Part shown: one piece after another, positions 7,662 through 52,568 of the stretch
Layout: each line of letters starts with the position of its first letter
How positions within the stretch are numbered: the first letter of the stretch is position 1
NCBI RefSeq assembly: GCF_039532215.1
Contig: NZ_BAAARN010000001.1
Location: forward strand, 1,037,029 to 1,101,028
Source of the DNA: Pedococcus aerophilus
GTDB taxonomy: Bacteria; Actinomycetota; Actinomycetes; Actinomycetales; Dermatophilaceae
Reading direction: 5' to 3'
DNA length: 64,000 bases
Position numbers and translations under genes: made by a program
The notes under the pieces: model-generated
What the model was told of the DNA's origin: nothing
Databases searched by the model: none
What the model saw: only the letters and a program-made list of their open reading frames with translations

Positions 7662-10600
7662 TCAGGCGCTCTGGGCCGCCACGTCGCGGATCCGCTGCGA
7701 GACCACGGTGGTCACACCGTCACCACGCATGGACACGCCGTACAACGCGTCCGCCACCTCCATGGTGCGCTTCTGGTGGGTGATGACGATGAGCTGGCTG
7801 GAGTCGCGCAGCTCCTCGAAGAGGGTGATGAGGCGGCCGAGGTTGGCGTCGTCGAGCGCCGCCTCCACCTCGTCCATGATGTAGAAGGGGCTGGGCCGCG
7901 CCTTGAAGATCGACACGAGCAGCGCCACCGCGACGAGCGAGCGCTCGCCACCGGAGAGCAGCGACAGGCGCTTGATCTTCTTGCCGGGCGGGCGGGCCTC
8001 GACCTCGATGCCGGTGGTCAGCATGTTCGACGGGTCGGTGAGCGTGAGCTTGCCCTCGCCGCCGGGGAACAGGCGGCCGAACACGCCCTCGAACTGGGCG
8101 GCGGTGTCGTGGAACGCCTCGGTGAAGACTCGCTCGACCCGCTCGTCGACCTCCTTGACGATGTCGAGCAGGTCGCGCTTGGACTTCTTGAGGTCCTCGA
8201 GCTGGTCGGTGAGGAACTTGTGCCGTTCCTCGAGCGCCGCGAACTCCTCCAGCGCCAGCGGGTTCACCCGACCGAGTGCGCTGAGCCCGCGCTCGGCCTT
8301 GCGCAGCCGCTTCTCCTGGACCTCGCGGACGTAGGGCGCCGGCTCGGGCAGGTCGTCCGGGTCGTCGTCGGGTCCGGGTACGTGCGGCACGGGCTGGTGG
8401 GGCCCGAAGTCCTCCATGAGGACGGCCGGGTCCATGCCCAGCTCCTCGACGGCCTTGGCCTGCATGGCCTCGATCCGCAGCCGCTGCTGGGTGCGGGCGA
8501 CCTCGTCGCGGTGGACCGTGTCGGTGAGCTCGCGCAGCTCGTCCTGGAGGGCGCTGACCTCGCGGCGCACCTGCGCGAGGGCCTGGTCGCGCTCGGTGCG
8601 CGCGGTCTCGGCGAGGGCGCGCTGCCGGGCTGCGGTGTCGAGGGTGGCCGCCACGAGCGAGACGGCGTATGCCGCGCCGCGACGGACGGCCTCGGCCACC
8701 GTGGCCTCGCGCTTGCGGCGCTCCTGGCGCGCCGCGAGCCGCTGCCGGGCGGCCAGTTCGTTGCGGGCGGCTCCCTCCAGGGAGTCGGCGCGGCCCTTGA
8801 GCGCGCGGGCGCGCTCCTCCTTGGTGCGCAGCGTGAGGCGCAGCTCGGTCTCGGTCGCCCGCCCGCGGCTGGCGAGAGCCTCGAGGCGGTCGCGCTCGTC
8901 GGTGCTCGGGTCCTGCGCCTCGGTCGGCTCGGCGCTGGCCTCGTCGAGGCGCTCGCTCAGGCCGGCGAGCTCGACGCGGTCGGCCTCGAGGGCCTCGGTG
9001 GCCGTCGCGATGGTGCGCTCGGTCCGCTCCGCCTCGGCGCGGGCGGCTCGGACGGTCGCGCCGAGCTGCCCGAGGCGCTCGGCCACGGCCGCCATCTTGG
9101 CGTCGGAGTCGTGCAGGGCGTCGAGGGCCGCCTCGACGTCGGCGTTCGCCTCGCGGTGCCGCTCCTGCGTGCCGGTGAGGGCGAACCTCGCCTGCTCACC
9201 GCGCCGGGTCGCATCGGCCACCCGGTCACGCGTCTCGTCGACGGCGGACTGGATCTCGATGAGGCTCGGGGCGTGGCTGCTGCCTCCGCGGACGAACCCG
9301 GGCGCGAAGACGTCGCCGTCGGCCGTGACCGCGGTGACCCCCTCACCACGGGCGACGAGGGCCGCCGCGAGCGCGGGGTCGTCGACGAGGGCGACCCGGT
9401 CGAGGAGCTGCTCGACGGCCGGTCGGACGGAGGCGGGCGCCTCGACGACGTCGCGGGCCCAGACCGCCGACCCGTCCAGGGACGGCCACGTCGAGGGGTC
9501 GCTGGAGACGGCGGTCTGGCCGACGAGGAACGCCGCCCGGCCCGCGTCGTCCTCGCGCAGGGTGAGCAGGGCCCGCGCGGCGTGGTCGACCGACTGGACG
9601 GCGAGGGCGTCGCCGGCCCAGCCGAGCGCTGCGGCGACAGCCGCCTCGTGACCGCCCTTGACCTGCAGGAGCGAGGCGACGGAGCCGACGATGCCGTGGC
9701 GGTCGTCCGCGGCGGCGATGAGGGTGGCGGCACCGTCCTTGCGGGACAGGCTCAGCTCGAGCGCCTCGAGCCGGGCCGCGGCGGTGGTGCGGTCACGCTC
9801 TGCGGTGCGCTCGGCCTCCTTGAGCTTCTCGACCTCGGCCTCGATGCCCTCGAGGACGGCGGCGGCCTTCTCGTACGCGCTGTCCAGCCCCTCCTCGCCC
9901 TCCTCGTCGACGGCGACGGAGGACTCGAGTTGGGCGAACTCGCGCTCGGCGGCCGCAGCCCGCTCCTGGGACTGCTCGACGATCCCGCGCAGGCGGCCGA
10001 GCTCGGCCTCCCCTGCCTCGATGCGGCTCCGACGGGCACCGACCTGGCCGGCGAGCTTGGCCAACCCCTCTCGGCGGTCGGCCGCGGCGCGCGCGAGGCG
10101 CTGGAGGCGCTGCTGCTCCGCGGCATACGCCTTCTCCGCCTCGGTGCGCTCGGTGATGGCCGCCTCCAGCGCACGAGCGGCTTCGCGGACGTCGGCGAGC
10201 AGCGACTCCTCCTGCGTGCGCGCCTCGGCGGCCTGCTTCTTGAGCTCCTCGGGATCGCGACCGGTGGTCTGCTCGTCCTGGCTGTCCTGCGACAGCAGGC
10301 GGACCCGCTCGGAGGCGAGCGACTTGGTGGAGGCGAGCTTGTCGCGCAGCTGCTGCAGGGCGAACCAGCGCTCCTGCGCCTTCGTCAGCTCCGGGGCGGC
10401 GTCCTGGGCCTGCTGCTCGAGGGTGGCCAGCCGGCTGCGCAGGGTGGCCAGACCTTCCTCGACCTCGGTGCGCTTGGCGATGAGGGCCGACTCGTCGGCG
10501 ACCTCCTGCTCGAGGGTCGAGGTGAGCTGGACGAGGTCGTCGGCGAGCAGGCGCAGGCGAGCGTCACGCGCGTCGGCCTGGATGCCGGCGGCTCGACGGG

Positions 10601-47184: not shown

Positions 47185-47865
47185 TCAGCCGGGCGGGTCG
47201 AGCAGTCCGCGCTGGATGGCGATGGACATCGCCTCGAGCTTGCTGTGCGCGCCCAGCTTGGCCGACAGGTTGGACACGTGGTTGCGGACGGTGTTGACGC
47301 TCACGACCAGCTCCGCCGCGATGGCGGCGTTGGACATGCCCTGGGCCAGCATCGCGAGGACCTCGTCCTCACGGCGGGTCAGGGTGGGCACCGGTGCGCT
47401 CACCCGGGTGAGCCTGGGCAGCAGCCGGGCCAGCATCTCCGAGGAGATCGACGCCTCGCCCTGGGCCGCGGCGCGGACGGCGGAGGTGACCTCGGCGAGG
47501 CTGCGCGTCTTGGAGAGGAACCCCGCGGCCCCGGCTTCCAGGGCGCGGACGAGGACGTCGTCGGAGCTCGACCCCGTGAGGACGAGGACGTTCATGCTGG
47601 GGCGCAACGCCTTCAGGTCGCGGATCGCATCCACCCCGTCGCCGTCGGGGAGCCGCCGGTCGAGCACCAGGACGTCGGGAGCCGAGGACTGCACGCGTGC
47701 CCGCGCCTGGGCCAAGGTGCTGGCCAGTCCCACGGACACCACGTCGGGCTCGTCGTCGAGGACCCGGGCCAGGCTCGCAGCCATCACCTCGTGGTCGTCG
47801 ACGATGAGCACGCGTATCGGCTCCGTGACGCGGCGGTCGTCCCCGCCGTCCTCGACATCAGTCAT
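47185..47865 (-). CDS. NarL/LuxR-family response regulator
   Basis: 226 codons from ATG 47865 (GGAGGGG upstream). The receiver (V-L-I-V-D-D-H-E, phospho-Asp in V-L-V-L-D-R-R-L-P-D-G, L-T-G-S-S, F-L-S-K-T) is followed by a LuxR helix-turn-helix (L-T-R-R-E-D-E-V-L-A-M-L-A-Q-G-M-S-N-A-A-I-A, V-N-T-V-R-N-H-V-S-N). It is divergent from a second receiver gene, with a symmetric CCTAGT-N8-ACTAGG box between, and lies close to a HisKA_3 kinase, the usual partner of this type. Confidence 0.9.
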   Translation of the reverse strand: MTDVEDGGDDRRVTEPIRVLIVDDHEVMAASLARVLDDEPDVVSVGLASTLAQARARVQSSAPDVLVLDRRLPDGDGVDAIRDLKALRPSMNVLVLTGSSSDDVLVRALEAGAAGFLSKTRSLAEVTSAVRAAAQGEASISSEMLARLLPRLTRVSAPVPTLTRREDEVLAMLAQGMSNAAIAAELVVSVNTVRNHVSNLSAKLGAHSKLEAMSIAIQRGLLDPPG

Positions 47866-47879
47866 GTCCCCTCCCGGCA

Positions 47880-47899
47880 CCTAGTATCCATGCACTAGG
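47880..47899. promoter_or_regulatory. Symmetric box CCTAGT-N8-ACTAGG between two response-regulator genes
   Basis: CCTAGTATCCATGCACTAGG: two 6-bp inverted halves. It lies 15 bp upstream of the LuxR-type regulator start and 110 bp upstream of the second receiver gene. The right half with its flank (TCCATGCACTAGG) recurs in the repeat units at 50.3 and 50.6 kb. Confidence 0.6.
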
Positions 47900-48008
47900 T
47901 GGCGCGGCGCGCGTGCACCGCCAAATTGGCACCGAGTACCGCCACCATGGACTTCCTGAGGTCGCGGTCAGCGACAGCGCCTCCCCCTCGATCAGGACAG
48001 GCAGGTCC

Positions 48009-48434
48009 GTGTCCCACCTCCGCGTGCTGATTGCCGACGACCACCCGCAGATGCTCGCCGCGATGGTCCACGTGGTCGAGTCCGACAGCCGCTTCCTCGT
48101 CGTCGGCACCGCCACCAACGGGCACGACGCACTCCAGGTGGCGATCGACTCGGAGGTCGACATCGCCCTGCTCGACGTGCGCATGCCCGGCGGTGGCCCG
48201 GCAGCGGTCGCCGCGTTCGTCGCCCTGCCGTCACCGCCCGTCGTGGTGGCCGTCTCTGCCGAGACAAGCCTGAGCACGGTCGCCGCCATGGTGGGCGCCG
48301 GCGCCGTCGGTTACCTCGCCAAGGGTCGGATCGGCGAGAGCCTGCCCGAGGTGCTCGCCCAGTGCGCCGCGGGCGAGGTGGTGCTGGCGACGGGCTCCGG
48401 TGCGGGGGCGCTCCGGATGCTGCTCGGCAACTGA
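48009..48434 (+). CDS. Response regulator receiver-only protein (no DNA-binding domain)
   Basis: 141 codons from GTG 48009; the frame is open to GTG 47913, but V-L-I-A-D-D-H starts soon after 48009. The receiver is complete: D-D-H, L-L-D-V-R-M-P-G-G-G with the phospho-Asp, V-S-A-E-T, Y-L-A-K-G. It ends about 30 residues after the conserved Lys, before any LuxR helix-turn-helix. In sequence it is of the NarL type, so the output domain has probably been lost. It could act as phosphate sink, or in competition with the neighbour regulator, between kinase and full-length regulator. Confidence 0.8.
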   Translation: MSHLRVLIADDHPQMLAAMVHVVESDSRFLVVGTATNGHDALQVAIDSEVDIALLDVRMPGGGPAAVAAFVALPSPPVVVAVSAETSLSTVAAMVGAGAVGYLAKGRIGESLPEVLAQCAAGEVVLATGSGAGALRMLLGN

Positions 48435-48599: not shown

Positions 48600-50153
48600 A
48601 TGGCAGACGGCACGAGGTCGACGACGACCGAGCACGCAGGGCTGGGTCCTCAGGTGTTCTTCGGGATGGACGCCAACGGGGTCTGCACGCTCTCCGTGGG
48701 CTCAGGGCTGGCGGCCCTGGGGTTCGCGCCGGGAGAGCTGGTCGGGACCGACCTGCGTGAGCTCTACCGCGAGGACGCGATGAGCATCGAGTCCCTGGAG
48801 CGCGCCCTCGCCGGCGAGCGCCACAGCCACGAACGAGAGTTCGAGGGGCGGCGGCTCGTGCTGCACTTCGAACCGATCCACGACGACGACGGCTCGGTGT
48901 CCGGTGCCATAGGCATGACGATCGACGTGACGGAGCAGCGCCGGGCCGAGGAGGAGGCTCGCGACAGCCGGGCCCGCGCCCTGGACCTGTCCTCCGACCT
49001 GCGCCGCTTCAAGGCCCTCGTCGAGGCGTCCCCGGACTTCATCGCCATCGCCGCCCTCGACGGCACGGTCGAGTACGTCAACCCGGGCGGGCGCCGGCTC
49101 ATCGGGATGTCACGCGAGCACGACGTCAGCACCACCACGATCTCCGACTACCTCACCCCGGAGGGCCTGGAGCTCTCGCTCCAGGTCGAACAGCCGGCCG
49201 TGGTGCGCGACGGCCACTTCGAGGGTGAGACGACCCTCAAGCACCAGGATGGCAGCGCCATCCCCGTGGCCGTCGCGAGCTTCCTCATGTTCGACATCAC
49301 CACCGGCGAGCCCTTCGCCCTGGCCACGGTCCAACGCGACATCAGCGACCGCGTCGCCGCAGACACGGCCATGAGCGCACTCGTCGAGCAGCGCACCGCC
49401 CTGCTCACCCGCCTCGTCGACGCCCAGGACGCCGAGCGCAACCGCATCGCCGCCGACGTCCACGACGACCCCGTGCAGGCCATCGCCGCGGTCGACCTGC
49501 GGATGGGACTGCTGCGACGGCGCCTGCGCGAGCACGCGCCCGACCTGCTGCCCGAACTGGACGGCCTCCAGGAGACGTTGAGCGGAGCGACCGAGCGCCT
49601 GCGGTCACTGCTGTTCGACCTCGAGCCACCCAACCTCGAGGTGCGCGGGCTGGCCGGCGCACTCCAGCGCGCCGTGGAGGAGATCTTCGAGGGCACCGAG
49701 CTGCACGGCAAGGTCGACGGCTCGGCGGAGCCGGCGATGCCCGAGGCGACCCGAGCCGTGGCATACCGCATCGTCAAGGAGGCCTTGGTCAACGCACTCA
49801 AGCACGCCAAGGCGCGGCAGGTCCTTGTCACGGTCGCGGGTGCCGACGGGGGTCTGACGGTCGAGGTGCACGACGACGGCATCGGCCCGGGCCAGGCGCT
49901 CCACGGCTCGGCGCCCGGTCACCGCGGTGTCTCCGGCATGCAGGACCGCGCCACCCTGGCCGGGGGTCGGTGCACGATCGGCGAGAGCCCGCACGGCGGC
50001 ACCCTCGTGTCCCTGTGGCTCCCGGGACCCGGCGCCGCACCGAGCGGTCCTCCCGGCCTGGGCGCAGGGCTCGGCCTGACCCTGGCCGCCAGCCAGAGCA
50101 CCCGGCCCCAGCCGCAGGCCGACGCCGACGACCGCAGCGACGACGACGACTGA
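48600..50153 (+). CDS. Cytosolic PAS-PAS histidine kinase of the HisKA_3 type
   Basis: 517 codons from ATG 48600. There is no membrane helix. PAS 1 spans about 15-110 (G-M-D-A-N-G-V-C-T-L, ending with D-V-T-E-Q-R-R-A-E-E), PAS 2 about 135-250 (F-I-A-I-A-A-L-D-G-T-V-E-Y-V-N, D-I-S-D-R-V-A). The dimerisation helix has E-R-N-R-I-A-A-D-V-H-D-D-P-V-Q-A with the phospho-His at about residue 288, and the ATPase domain has E-A-L-V-N-A-L-K-H-A-K-A and D-D-G-I-G-P-G. The C-terminus is an Asp-rich tail. PAS domains suggest a redox, oxygen or small-ligand signal. HisKA_3 kinases phosphorylate NarL/LuxR regulators such as the one at 47185. Confidence 0.9.
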   Translation: MADGTRSTTTEHAGLGPQVFFGMDANGVCTLSVGSGLAALGFAPGELVGTDLRELYREDAMSIESLERALAGERHSHEREFEGRRLVLHFEPIHDDDGSVSGAIGMTIDVTEQRRAEEEARDSRARALDLSSDLRRFKALVEASPDFIAIAALDGTVEYVNPGGRRLIGMSREHDVSTTTISDYLTPEGLELSLQVEQPAVVRDGHFEGETTLKHQDGSAIPVAVASFLMFDITTGEPFALATVQRDISDRVAADTAMSALVEQRTALLTRLVDAQDAERNRIAADVHDDPVQAIAAVDLRMGLLRRRLREHAPDLLPELDGLQETLSGATERLRSLLFDLEPPNLEVRGLAGALQRAVEEIFEGTELHGKVDGSAEPAMPEATRAVAYRIVKEALVNALKHAKARQVLVTVAGADGGLTVEVHDDGIGPGQALHGSAPGHRGVSGMQDRATLAGGRCTIGESPHGGTLVSLWLPGPGAAPSGPPGLGAGLGLTLAASQSTRPQPQADADDRSDDDD

Positions 50154-50178
50154 GGCTTACTCCCCATACGGTGCCTGC

Positions 50179-50276
50179 GCACTAGGCAGGATCGCGCTGC
50201 GGCACTGGGTGCCGGCCGCCCTTGTGGGAGAAGGTGAAGGTACGTCGACCGGCCCGCGTCCCCTGAGGGCCGGTCG
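50179..50276 (+). other. Diverged first copy of the small repeat unit, ending in a hairpin
   Basis: GCACTAGGCAGGAT at 50179 resembles the start of the two units downstream, but the 21-codon frame is lost. A hairpin CGACCGGCCC (50246-50255)/complement (50267-50276) follows; a second, imperfect GACGTCC...GGACGTC hairpin lies near 50283-50320. It could terminate the kinase message. Confidence 0.45.
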
Positions 50277-50353
50277 GCGCTCGACGTCCCCGGGCCCGCC
50301 CGGGCCTGCCCGGGACGTCACGCCCAGTCACTGGTGTCCATGCACTAGGCAAG

Positions 50354-50419
50354 ATGCGACGCTCGCATCGGGTTTGCCCCTTGTGGGGTGGGCCAGACTG
50401 GTCCTACGAGCTCCGGTGA
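50354..50419 (+). CDS. Possible 21-residue micropeptide in unit 1
   Basis: ATG 50354 to TGA 50419. The peptide reads M-R-R-S-H-R-V, a variable centre (C-P-L-W-G-G), then P-D-W-S-Y-E-L-R. A weak AGG lies 5-7 nt upstream. Its frame, start, stop and both ends are kept in unit 2. The first 24 nt also form an ATGCGA-CGC-TCGCAT palindrome, so conservation could reflect RNA structure instead. Confidence 0.35.
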   Translation: MRRSHRVCPLWGGPDWSYELR

Positions 50420-50453
50420 TCCCCCCGCCTCACCCGCGCACCGGTCTCGTCGT

Positions 50454-50505
50454 GACGAGCACCGTTCGGCCCCTCCCCCCTGCACGGGTCCGATCGGTGC
50501 TCGTC
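50454..50505. terminator. Hairpin of unit 1
   Basis: GACGAGCACCGTTCGG (50454-50469) and CCGATCGGTGCTCGTC (50490-50505) pair over 16 positions with one mismatch, loop 20 nt. Confidence 0.65.
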
Positions 50506-50580
50506 CCATGTCCGGGGCCGTCCGCCCCGGACGCCGCGAGACCCAGCTGTCATGGTGCTGGTGTCGATGCACTAGGCGAA

Positions 50581-50646
50581 ATGCGACGCTCGCATCGGGT
50601 TCGTCCCCAGGCCGATCGGCCAGACTGGTGCTACGAGCTCCGGTGA
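50581..50646 (+). CDS. Possible 21-residue micropeptide in unit 2
   Basis: ATG 50581 to TGA 50646. M-R-R-S-H-R-V, a variable centre (R-P-Q-A-D-R), then P-D-W-C-Y-E-L-R; 15 of 21 residues equal those of unit 1 and no gap is needed. Four of the six changed residues lie in one block. Confidence 0.35.
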   Translation: MRRSHRVRPQADRPDWCYELR

Positions 50647-50678
50647 TCCCCCCACTTCACGTGCGCCGAGCTCGTCGT

Positions 50679-50731
50679 GACGAGCACCGTTCGGCCCCTC
50701 CCCCCCTGCACGGGTCCGATCGGTGCTCGTC
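50679..50731. terminator. Hairpin of unit 2, also downstream of cimA
   Basis: Arms 50679-50694 and 50716-50731 are identical to those in unit 1, with one more C in the loop. It lies 36 bp beyond the cimA stop (minus strand). Confidence 0.7.
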
Positions 50732-50766
50732 CCATGTCCGCGGCCATCCGGCTCCGAGGGACAGGG

Positions 50767-52347
50767 TCAGCGGACGGAGACCCCGGCGCGGACCAGGCCG
50801 TACGTCACGCCCTCCACGAGCGCCTGCCACGATGCCTCGAGGATGTTGCCCGCGACGCCGATGGTCTCCCAGGACGTCGTGCCGTCGGAGGTCTCGATGA
50901 GGACACGGGTGACGGCGTCGGTGCCATGGGCGGCGTCGAGGATGCGGACGCGGAAGTCGATGAGCTCGAGCTTGGCCAGCTCCGGGTAGGCCGGGGTGAG
51001 CGCCTGGCGGAGGGCGTGGTCGAGGGCGTTCACCGGGCCGTTGCCCTCCCCGGTCGCGACGACGCGCTCCCCGCCGGCGACCACCTTGACGGTCGCCTCG
51101 GACAGTGCGGACTCCTCGCCACGTGCGTCCGTGATGACGCGCCACGACTCCACGGCGAAGAAGTCGAGTCCCTTGCCCTCGACCTCACGCCGCAGCAGCA
51201 GCTCGAACGAGGCGTCGGCGGCGTCGAACGTGTAGCCCCGCAACTCGAGGTCCTTGACCTTGGCGAGGACACCGCTGAGCAGCTCGTCGTTGCCCGACAG
51301 GTCGTACCCCAGCTCTCGGCCCTTCAGCTCGATGCTGGCGCGACCGGCCATGTCCGACACCAGCATTCGCATGTCGTTGCCCACGTGCATCGGGTCCGTG
51401 TGCTGGTACAGGTCGGGGTCGATTCGGATGGCGCTGGCGTGCAGGCCGGCCTTGTGCGCGAAGGCGCTGGCCCCGACGTAGGGCTGGCGGCTGTACGGCG
51501 GGACGTTCGTGATCTCGCTGATGGAGTGGGCGATCCGCGTCGCCTCGCGCAGACGACCGGTTTCGAGCAGGGGCAGGCCCTGCTTGATCTGCAGGTTGCT
51601 CACGACGGTGAGCAGGTCGGCGTTGCCGGTGCGCTCGCCGTACCCGTTGATCGTCCCCTGCACGTGCGTGGCGCCTGCGTCCACGGCAGCCATGGAGTTG
51701 GCCACCGCGCAGCCGGTGTCGTTGTGGCAATGGATCCCCACGCGCGCCGACGTGCTGCCCACCGCGTCGGCGACGACGTCGGCGATCTGGTGCGGGAGCA
51801 TCCCGCCGTTGGTGTCGCACAACGCGACGACCTCGGCGCCGGACTCCATCGCCGCCCGGACGACCTCGAGAGCGTAGGCCCGGTCGGCGGCATACCCGTC
51901 GAAGAAGTGCTCCGCGTCGAGGAAGACGCGCCGACCCTCGCCGGCGAGGAAGGAGACGGTGTCGCGCACCATCTCCAGGTTCTCCTCCAGGGTCGTGCGC
52001 AACGCGGTCTCCACGTGGCGGACGTGGGACTTGGCCACGAGCGTGACCACGGGGGCGCCGGAGTCGACGAGGGCGCGGACCAGCGGGTCGGTGGCCGCGC
52101 GACCGCCGGCCCGCCTGGTCGCGCCGAACGCCGCGAGGGTGGCGTTGCGAAGCGTGAGATCGCGCTGGGCGCGGGCGAAGAACTCGGTGTCCTTGGGGTT
52201 CGCCCCCGGCCAGCCGCCCTCGATGAACCCGACCCCGAGCTCGTCGAGGTGTACCGCGATGGCGAGCTTGTCCGACACGGAGAGGTTGAGCCCCTCCTGC
52301 TGCGCTCCGTCGCGCAGGGTGGTGTCGTAGACGTGCAGGTCGCTCAT
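50767..52347 (-). CDS. cimA: Citramalate synthase
   Basis: CimA condenses pyruvate and acetyl-CoA to (R)-citramalate, a threonine-independent route to 2-ketobutyrate and isoleucine. The product has 526 residues from ATG 52347. The DRE-TIM barrel motif is Y-D-T-T-L-R-D-G-A-Q; metal residues are in H-C-H-N-D-T-G and G-T-I-N-G-Y-G-E-R-T-G-N. The C-terminal LeuA-dimer regulatory domain is present (about 410-526). The size and G-Y-G-E-R-T-G-N-A-D separate it from LeuA. Upstream lies a leader frame and attenuator. It works with LeuCD and LeuB, both encoded in this window. Confidence 0.94.
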   Translation of the reverse strand: MSDLHVYDTTLRDGAQQEGLNLSVSDKLAIAVHLDELGVGFIEGGWPGANPKDTEFFARAQRDLTLRNATLAAFGATRRAGGRAATDPLVRALVDSGAPVVTLVAKSHVRHVETALRTTLEENLEMVRDTVSFLAGEGRRVFLDAEHFFDGYAADRAYALEVVRAAMESGAEVVALCDTNGGMLPHQIADVVADAVGSTSARVGIHCHNDTGCAVANSMAAVDAGATHVQGTINGYGERTGNADLLTVVSNLQIKQGLPLLETGRLREATRIAHSISEITNVPPYSRQPYVGASAFAHKAGLHASAIRIDPDLYQHTDPMHVGNDMRMLVSDMAGRASIELKGRELGYDLSGNDELLSGVLAKVKDLELRGYTFDAADASFELLLRREVEGKGLDFFAVESWRVITDARGEESALSEATVKVVAGGERVVATGEGNGPVNALDHALRQALTPAYPELAKLELIDFRVRILDAAHGTDAVTRVLIETSDGTTSWETIGVAGNILEASWQALVEGVTYGLVRAGVSVR

Positions 52348-52467: not shown

Positions 52468-52524
52468 AAAGCAAAAGACCCCCCGGGTGTGGGAGGTCTG
52501 CGCGACGAGGAGGTCTCGTCGCGC
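52468..52524 (-). promoter_or_regulatory. Attenuator of cimA: terminator and upstream hairpin
   Basis: Read on the minus strand, a perfect 10-bp hairpin GCGCGACGAG...CTCGTCGCGC (52524-52500) begins at the leader stop codon. The terminator AGACCTCCC-ACACCC-GGGGGGTCT (52499-52476) follows, with TTTTGCTTT behind it. The string AGACCTCC occurs both in the loop of the first hairpin and in the 5' arm of the terminator, so the GGGGGGTCT strand has two possible partners. Confidence 0.75.
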
Positions 52525-52568
52525 TAGTCGATAATCACCATGGTGGTCGCCATGTGCCAGGAGGTCAT
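52524..52568 (-). CDS. Leader peptide of cimA with Met-Val-Ile-Ile run
   Basis: 14 codons, MTSWHMATTMVIID, ending TAG at 52524, where the hairpin begins. Ile and Val codons near the end are the expected sensor for charged tRNA. The start is probably leaderless, as CACAGT ends 6 nt before the ATG. Confidence 0.7.
   Translation of the reverse strand: MTSWHMATTMVIID

Follow-up and report, generated by a model that had tools for sequence, protein, structure and literature searches.

Tandem C-rich stem-loop RNAs as a putative output of a LuxR-type two-component system in Pedococcus aerophilus and related actinobacteria

Comparative analysis of a 64,000-nt stretch of Pedococcus aerophilus DNA (the window) points to tandem small RNA (sRNA) genes as a main output of the two-component system encoded beside them, with RNAs that would pair with G-rich ribosome-binding sites. 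The probability of this reading is put at about 0.8, and its statements on transcription, regulator binding and targets are predictions. As judged by sequence comparison, the palindromic site, its spacing to a -10-like hexamer, the stems and the C-rich loops are conserved, and these parts are inherited together. The genomes compared include that of the window (G000, 4.02 Mb), three of the same genus (G007, G010 and G001) and one from another genus of the family (G083).

Organization of the locus

The regulatory genes and their operator occupy the following positions in the window.

47185..47880, minus strand: LuxR/NarL-type response regulator, presumed activator, with Response_reg and GerE domains (Pfam PF00072, PF00196); its start is probably the ATG at 47865
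47881..47898, plus strand: perfect palindrome CTAGTATCCATGCACTAG between the divergent regulator genes (site search and line-up)
47913..48434, plus strand: orphan receiver-only response regulator, longest frame (Pfam PF00072); the true start is uncertain, perhaps the GTG at 48009
47943..47948, plus strand: -10-like CACCAT, putative promoter of the orphan response regulator and kinase genes, 48 nt from the second half-site
48600..50153, plus strand: histidine kinase with PAS-PAS-HisKA_3-HATPase architecture (Pfam)

Two full repeat units and a diverged third lie between the histidine kinase gene and a convergent cimA/leuA-like gene (50767-52347).

50168..50185, plus strand: palindromic site of the third, diverged unit (repeat comparison and site line-up)
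50230..50235, plus strand: weak -10-like GAAGGT of unit 3, 48 nt from the site
50242..50279, plus strand: stem-loop of unit 3 with GUCCCC in the loop (folding; conserved in four same-genus genomes)
50331..50348, plus strand: palindromic site of unit 1 (repeat comparison and site line-up)
50394..50399, plus strand: -10-like CAGACT of unit 1, 49 nt from the site; surrounding columns invariant (10/10) in four units
50406..50510, plus strand: predicted sRNA 1, ends predicted; stem-loop 1 at about 50406-50450 and stem-loop 2 at 50454-50505, with C-rich loops
50558..50575, plus strand: palindromic site of unit 2 (repeat comparison and site line-up)
50621..50626, plus strand: -10-like CAGACT of unit 2, 49 nt from the site
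50633..50736, plus strand: predicted sRNA 2, ends predicted; stem-loop 1 at about 50633-50674 and stem-loop 2 at 50679-50731, with C-rich loops

The original prediction, made from the window alone, had described two near-copies with a period of 227 between the kinase and cimA, each with a 66-nt open frame and a hairpin, as well as a diverged third unit, and all of these elements were recovered. The two full units start at 50331 and 50558 (period 227 nt) and match block by block at 84-91% identity: 84% over 109 nt (50331-50439 versus 50558-50666), beyond which the copies continue through a 46-nt block (91%) and then a 62-nt block (89%). Both follow the same order, in which the palindrome is succeeded by a less conserved stretch, the CAGACT hexamer and two stem-loops with C-rich loops. 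The previously described hairpin has 20-nt arms that are 90% complementary (50454-50505 in unit 1, 50679-50731 in unit 2), and upstream of it each full unit carries an additional C-rich stem-loop. The 66-nt frame is present at 50354 and 50581 (21 codons), and the ATG within the site soon meets a stop (ATG CAC TAG). The third element appears as a 23-nt match at 50170, with 78% and 70% identity to the other two, and a strong hairpin comes after it at about 50242-50279; this unit has a single short stem-loop and lacks GGTGATCCCCCC.

On the minus strand, upstream of the cimA-like gene (window 52470-52568), a short frame, MTSWHMATTMVIID, precedes a pair of hairpins that lead into a T-run. Frame and hairpins are conserved in loci L037 and L038, with Val-Ile-Ile before the last codon, and the region looks like a leader-peptide attenuator of the cimA-like gene.

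Operator and promoter geometry

The CTRGT-N8-ACTAG palindrome of the sRNA units recurs, in perfect form, between the LuxR-type and receiver-only regulator genes upstream of the kinase. This divergent layout is shared by G007, G010, G001 and G083, with perfect copies of the palindrome in G007, G010 and G083 and one imperfect in its last two bases in G001, and each of these genomes has a second site ahead of a hairpin RNA. Sites from nine genomes were lined up (22 in total: 8 between regulators, 13 before a hairpin RNA and 1 before a STAS-type gene), the weak downstream Nocardioides sites among them being chosen by eye from their position. A NANNNT hexamer was found 48 or 49 nt past the second half-site at 20 of the 22 sites, and at 47 and 50 nt in the remaining two, against an expectation of 0.8 of 22 for a two-base bin and a maximum of 3 in any bin off the peak; as the sites form homologous groups, they represent fewer than 22 independent observations. 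Weak -10-like hexamers are seen in unit 3 (GAAGGT) and in G001 (GAGGGT). With this spacing, the centre of the palindrome would fall about 66 nt before the predicted transcription start, a usual position for an activator. A candidate promoter and activator site ahead of each unit, as originally proposed, is well supported by cross-genome comparison, through the 20/22 spacing and the conservation of both site and -10 box. In the luxR direction such a hexamer was detected at 0 of the 4 operators checked, a fifth (L105) not being scorable, and we infer that the palindrome at 47881..47898 acts towards the orphan response regulator and kinase genes.

Across the whole G000 genome, a longer version of the site pattern matched exactly at two places only, units 1 and 2; including inexact matches it gave counts of 12 and 8 versus 20 and 17 in the control, and only the two exact hits are meaningful. 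The palindrome alone, allowing at most two mismatches, was uninformative in G000, since the reversed control yielded more places (72) than the pattern itself (48 per strand). 

Two further features were noted around these sites. After the palindrome of units 1 and 2, a second inverted repeat, ATGCGA-N3-TCGCAT (TGC-N7-GCA in relatives), was identified by eye at window positions 50354-50368 and in homologues; lying near -40, it is perhaps a second, weaker regulator site. G083 (L087, about 9650-10080) carries, between kinase and RNA, a short gene assigned by reading as STAS-like; a separate copy of the site stands in front of it, and this gene may possibly be a protein output of the same regulator.

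Structure and conservation of the RNAs

Taken from just after CAGACT, the two predicted RNAs fold at -51.1 and -52 kcal/mol, both with z = -6.1 and with none of 200 shuffles equal, while the unit 3 stem-loop alone has z = -3.6 and its 106-nt stretch z = -2.8 (3/200 shuffles equal). When both strands of the 64-kb window were scanned, hairpins with a C-run loop on a stem of 11 bp or more numbered 8, of which units 1 and 2 supply two; together with the fold z of -6.1, this sets them beyond chance. In an alignment of four units (the two window copies, G007 and G010), invariant columns are concentrated in the site (16/18), the -10 box (10/10) and the hairpins (33/49 and 46/56), as compared to the spacer (7/23) and the sequence just downstream (1/29). 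Five RNAs were also aligned (both window copies, G007, G010 and G083), G001 being omitted because of its longer linker. Changes on both sides that keep pairing affect 6 of 33 pairs, a number reached by 5 of 500 shuffles, and 89.7% of cells pair versus 30-43% when the structure is slid, although a structure derived from the same sequences is favoured over its slid versions. The original interpretation is partly supported: comparison gives good support to tandem sRNA genes preceded by a putative activator site of a LuxR-type regulator. In neither window copy does a U-run follow hairpin 2 (in G010, CCCCTTTT stands there).

Pairing of the C-rich loops with the luxR leader was assessed as the longest complementary run, which spans 8 nt in the window (GGGAGGGG, loop 2), 7 in G007, 6 in G010, 7 in G083 and 5 in G001. 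The 8-nt match is equalled by 281 of 14218 background stretches (about 2%), and the leader is a weak lead as an sRNA target.

Phylogenetic distribution

At the family level, the kinase was detected at E <= 1e-40 in 7 of 149 genomes, with at least 68% identity in G000, G001, G007, G010 and G083 and partial matches of 44-46% in G035 and G100. The regulator was found in 8 of 184 genomes, at 83% identity or more in the same five and at 47-67% in G100, G035 and G137 (63% in G035); all five genomes with a regulator of at least 83%, out of 184, also have the kinase, the site and the RNA. The system is present in 4 of the 11 same-genus genomes seen. G100, G137 and four more distant regulator loci (L129-L132) show nothing beyond 6/8 core bases, off the spacing. 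In G035 (L085), the core palindrome is perfect and lies 76 nt behind luxR, with C-rich stretches further on and no -10-like hexamer at the usual spacing; a 42-nt DNA match in the same genome (L026) was discarded, as the gene ahead of it is unrelated. A covariance model built from five RNAs (the two of G000 and those of G007, G010 and G083) was run on 186 family genomes, and its strong matches were confined to its four source genomes, with weak matches on their reverse strands, so that it revealed no new member. It missed G001, which nevertheless carries one site followed by two C-rich stem-loops, and returned one borderline match in G143 (E 0.034), rejected because no palindrome is present there.

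Class-wide, the kinase was found at E 1e-70 in 4 of 394 genomes and the regulator at E 1e-60 in 7 of 394, the four most distant regulators being without such a site. No site was identified beside the kinase homologues of loci L066, L067, L100-L104 and L108; for six of the genomes with site-free kinase loci, the regulator and its site are located elsewhere.

In Nocardioides, the kinase is carried by 10 of 215 genomes (E <= 1e-90) and the regulator by 20 of 209 (E <= 1e-62), among them all 10 kinase carriers. An operator with the expected spacing lies on the side away from luxR at 18 of the 20 regulator loci, and a second site with that spacing followed by a C-rich stem-loop lies within 200 nt behind luxR at 10 of the 20; as spacing was built into the criterion, these counts are no new test of it. 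Control stretches from the same loci contained site plus hexamer in 7 of 342 cases, and a C-rich stem-loop as well in 2 of 342. The RNA behind luxR is present in 9 of the 10 kinase carriers versus 1 of the 10 others (Fisher p = 0.001, with no correction for relatedness). In the tenth carrier only 140 nt of contig remain behind luxR, and a site-like stretch lies close to the contig end. In 7 of the 10 carriers, the kinase gene sits on another contig than the regulator gene or is separated from it by hundreds of kb or more, so their co-occurrence with the RNA does not reflect plain linkage. In N. ungokensis (G775), the kinase is in addition followed by a site and a single C-rich stem-loop. When 7 of the 10 RNAs were aligned (L112, L117 and L122 omitted), 9 of 22 pairs had changed on both sides, as in 1 of 500 shuffles, and 90.8% of cells were paired. 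Kinase, putative regulator, palindrome and predicted C-rich hairpin RNA co-occur in four same-genus genomes, in the genus of G083 and in Nocardioides.

Alternative explanations

Among the closest known systems is the 6C RNA (RF01066), and units 1 and 2 show its plan of two adjacent stem-loops with about six or more loop Cs each, whereas unit 3 has one stem-loop and four consecutive loop Cs. Were the units true 6C members, duplicated and placed under a new regulator, one would understand why 6C is the top-scoring Rfam match on both copies (full model, 23.7 and 22.2 bits). These scores, however, are half the gathering cut-off of 47 bits; G083 scores 19.6, no better than chance matches there; and neither L106 nor the RNA regions of seven Nocardioides loci match 6C (the latter at E up to 10), no Rfam family exceeding its cut-off in those regions. 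At cut-off, a scan of the 64-kb window returned two tRNAs only. Moreover, G000 has a separate 6C RNA above the cut-off, at 49.6 bits (G000:C1:1801313-1801387, L002). Plain 6C membership was rejected on the sub-cut-off scores, this separate copy and the missing Nocardioides matches, and the duplicated-member scenario is unlikely. It is quite improbable, too, that the stem-loops are mere terminators or spacers between the kinase and the cimA-like gene, locally duplicated. Strong GC-rich hairpins after a gene, with the cimA-like gene converging from the opposite side, would be expected in that case, but a conserved site and -10-like hexamer precede each of them, the full units have two hairpins with conserved C-rich loops, and in Nocardioides the same promoter and hairpins stand behind luxR.

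Several other readings derive from the original prediction. Its micropeptide array, in which the 66-nt frame would be translated, draws on a frame that is intact in both window copies yet broken in 2/2 relatives compared, by a frameshift in G007 and by loss of the stop codon in G010, and that falls mostly upstream of the predicted transcript start; this possibility is extremely remote. A mobile repeat family had been suggested as well, and was discarded given that the unit occurs at one place only in G000 rather than being dispersed and that the kinase-RNA-cimA order is kept in G007 and G010. The likeness to Gac/Rsm systems extends to the predicted wiring only, in which tandem sibling RNAs would be under a LuxR-type regulator. 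Known CsrA binding requires GGA, and Gac/Rsm sRNAs present repeated GGA motifs in their loops, whereas none of the three RNAs contains a single GGA; this argues against Rsm-type action, and sequestration of a CsrA-type protein is very unlikely. 

Relation to known systems and implications

Signal-controlled multicopy sRNAs are a kind already known. RsmY and RsmZ are sibling sRNAs and the output of the LuxR-type two-component system GacSA; the csRNA genes of CiaRH are dispersed; the LisRK response regulator is of another type than LuxR; and DosR belongs to the LuxR/NarL type, with a different operator. In Listeria, the five sibling sRNAs LhrC1-5 depend on the response regulator of LisRK, whose element is located upstream of -53; both of their loops contain UCCC motifs, and motifs of this sort are described as attaching to ribosome-binding sites, in a report that also mentions RsmY/RsmZ under GacSA (PMC4132741). 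The units share with LhrC the putative tie of sibling sRNAs to a response regulator and C-rich motifs in both loops, but Listeria is a low-GC host. In streptococci, two to six csRNAs of CiaRH are reported for each genome, the prediction relying on a terminator downstream of a promoter for the response regulator (PMC3091779); they differ in regulator and in RNA sequence. As in LhrC and the csRNAs, the predicted sRNA genes of the locus are siblings, and a copy of one common putative regulator site precedes every one of them. DrrS/MTS1338 of M. tuberculosis is an actinobacterial sRNA activated by a regulator, DosR, but it is a single gene and is processed from a longer transcript (PMC8628891). 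The 6C RNA of Corynebacterium has two stem-loops with C-rich loops in about 100 nt (PMC4046766), and the two C-rich loops of B11 were tested in the repression of a six-G leader in M. abscessus (PMC10470900). The window RNAs share this plan and size, and differ in their larger loops, tandem copies and putative activator site of a linked two-component system. Compared to RsmY/RsmZ, they lack GGA, and RNA-RNA pairing is expected instead of protein sequestration.

In the proposed mechanism, the PAS kinase would phosphorylate the neighbouring LuxR-type regulator, which would bind the CTRGT-N8-ACTAG palindrome, centred some 66 nt ahead of every start, and switch on the sRNAs as well as, in a positive feedback, the orphan response regulator and kinase genes. 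The RNAs, about 105 nt long, may then use their C-rich loops to pair with G-rich ribosome-binding sites and so lower translation, a mechanism we infer by analogy to B11/6C and LhrC, for which it is reported, and the tandem copies would provide a higher dose and diversified loops. The RNA family, its linked regulator and a 6C-like plan under two-component control appear to be new, and among open-licence papers no such RNA was found described in Phycicoccus, Intrasporangiaceae or Nocardioides. The wider proposal, considered less likely than not, is an undescribed actinobacterial sRNA family forming the main output of a dedicated LuxR-type two-component system. In this view the regulator's recognisable sites in G000 would be those of its own operon and of the three sRNA promoters, a Gac-like all-RNA output acting through pairing of C-rich loops with ribosome-binding sites in place of protein sequestration.

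How signals control C-rich sRNAs is little understood for high-GC Gram-positive bacteria, and the legend to a review figure gives the 6C-inducing factors as undefined (PMC8628891). Because the kinase-linked RNA arrangement recurs in related bacteria, it probably represents an undescribed signal-controlled RNA switch. The putative regulator, site, promoter and RNA are co-inherited in soil genera from two actinobacterial families, making the whole circuit testable in one strain, and the data suggest that 6C-like loops came under signal control on a line of their own.
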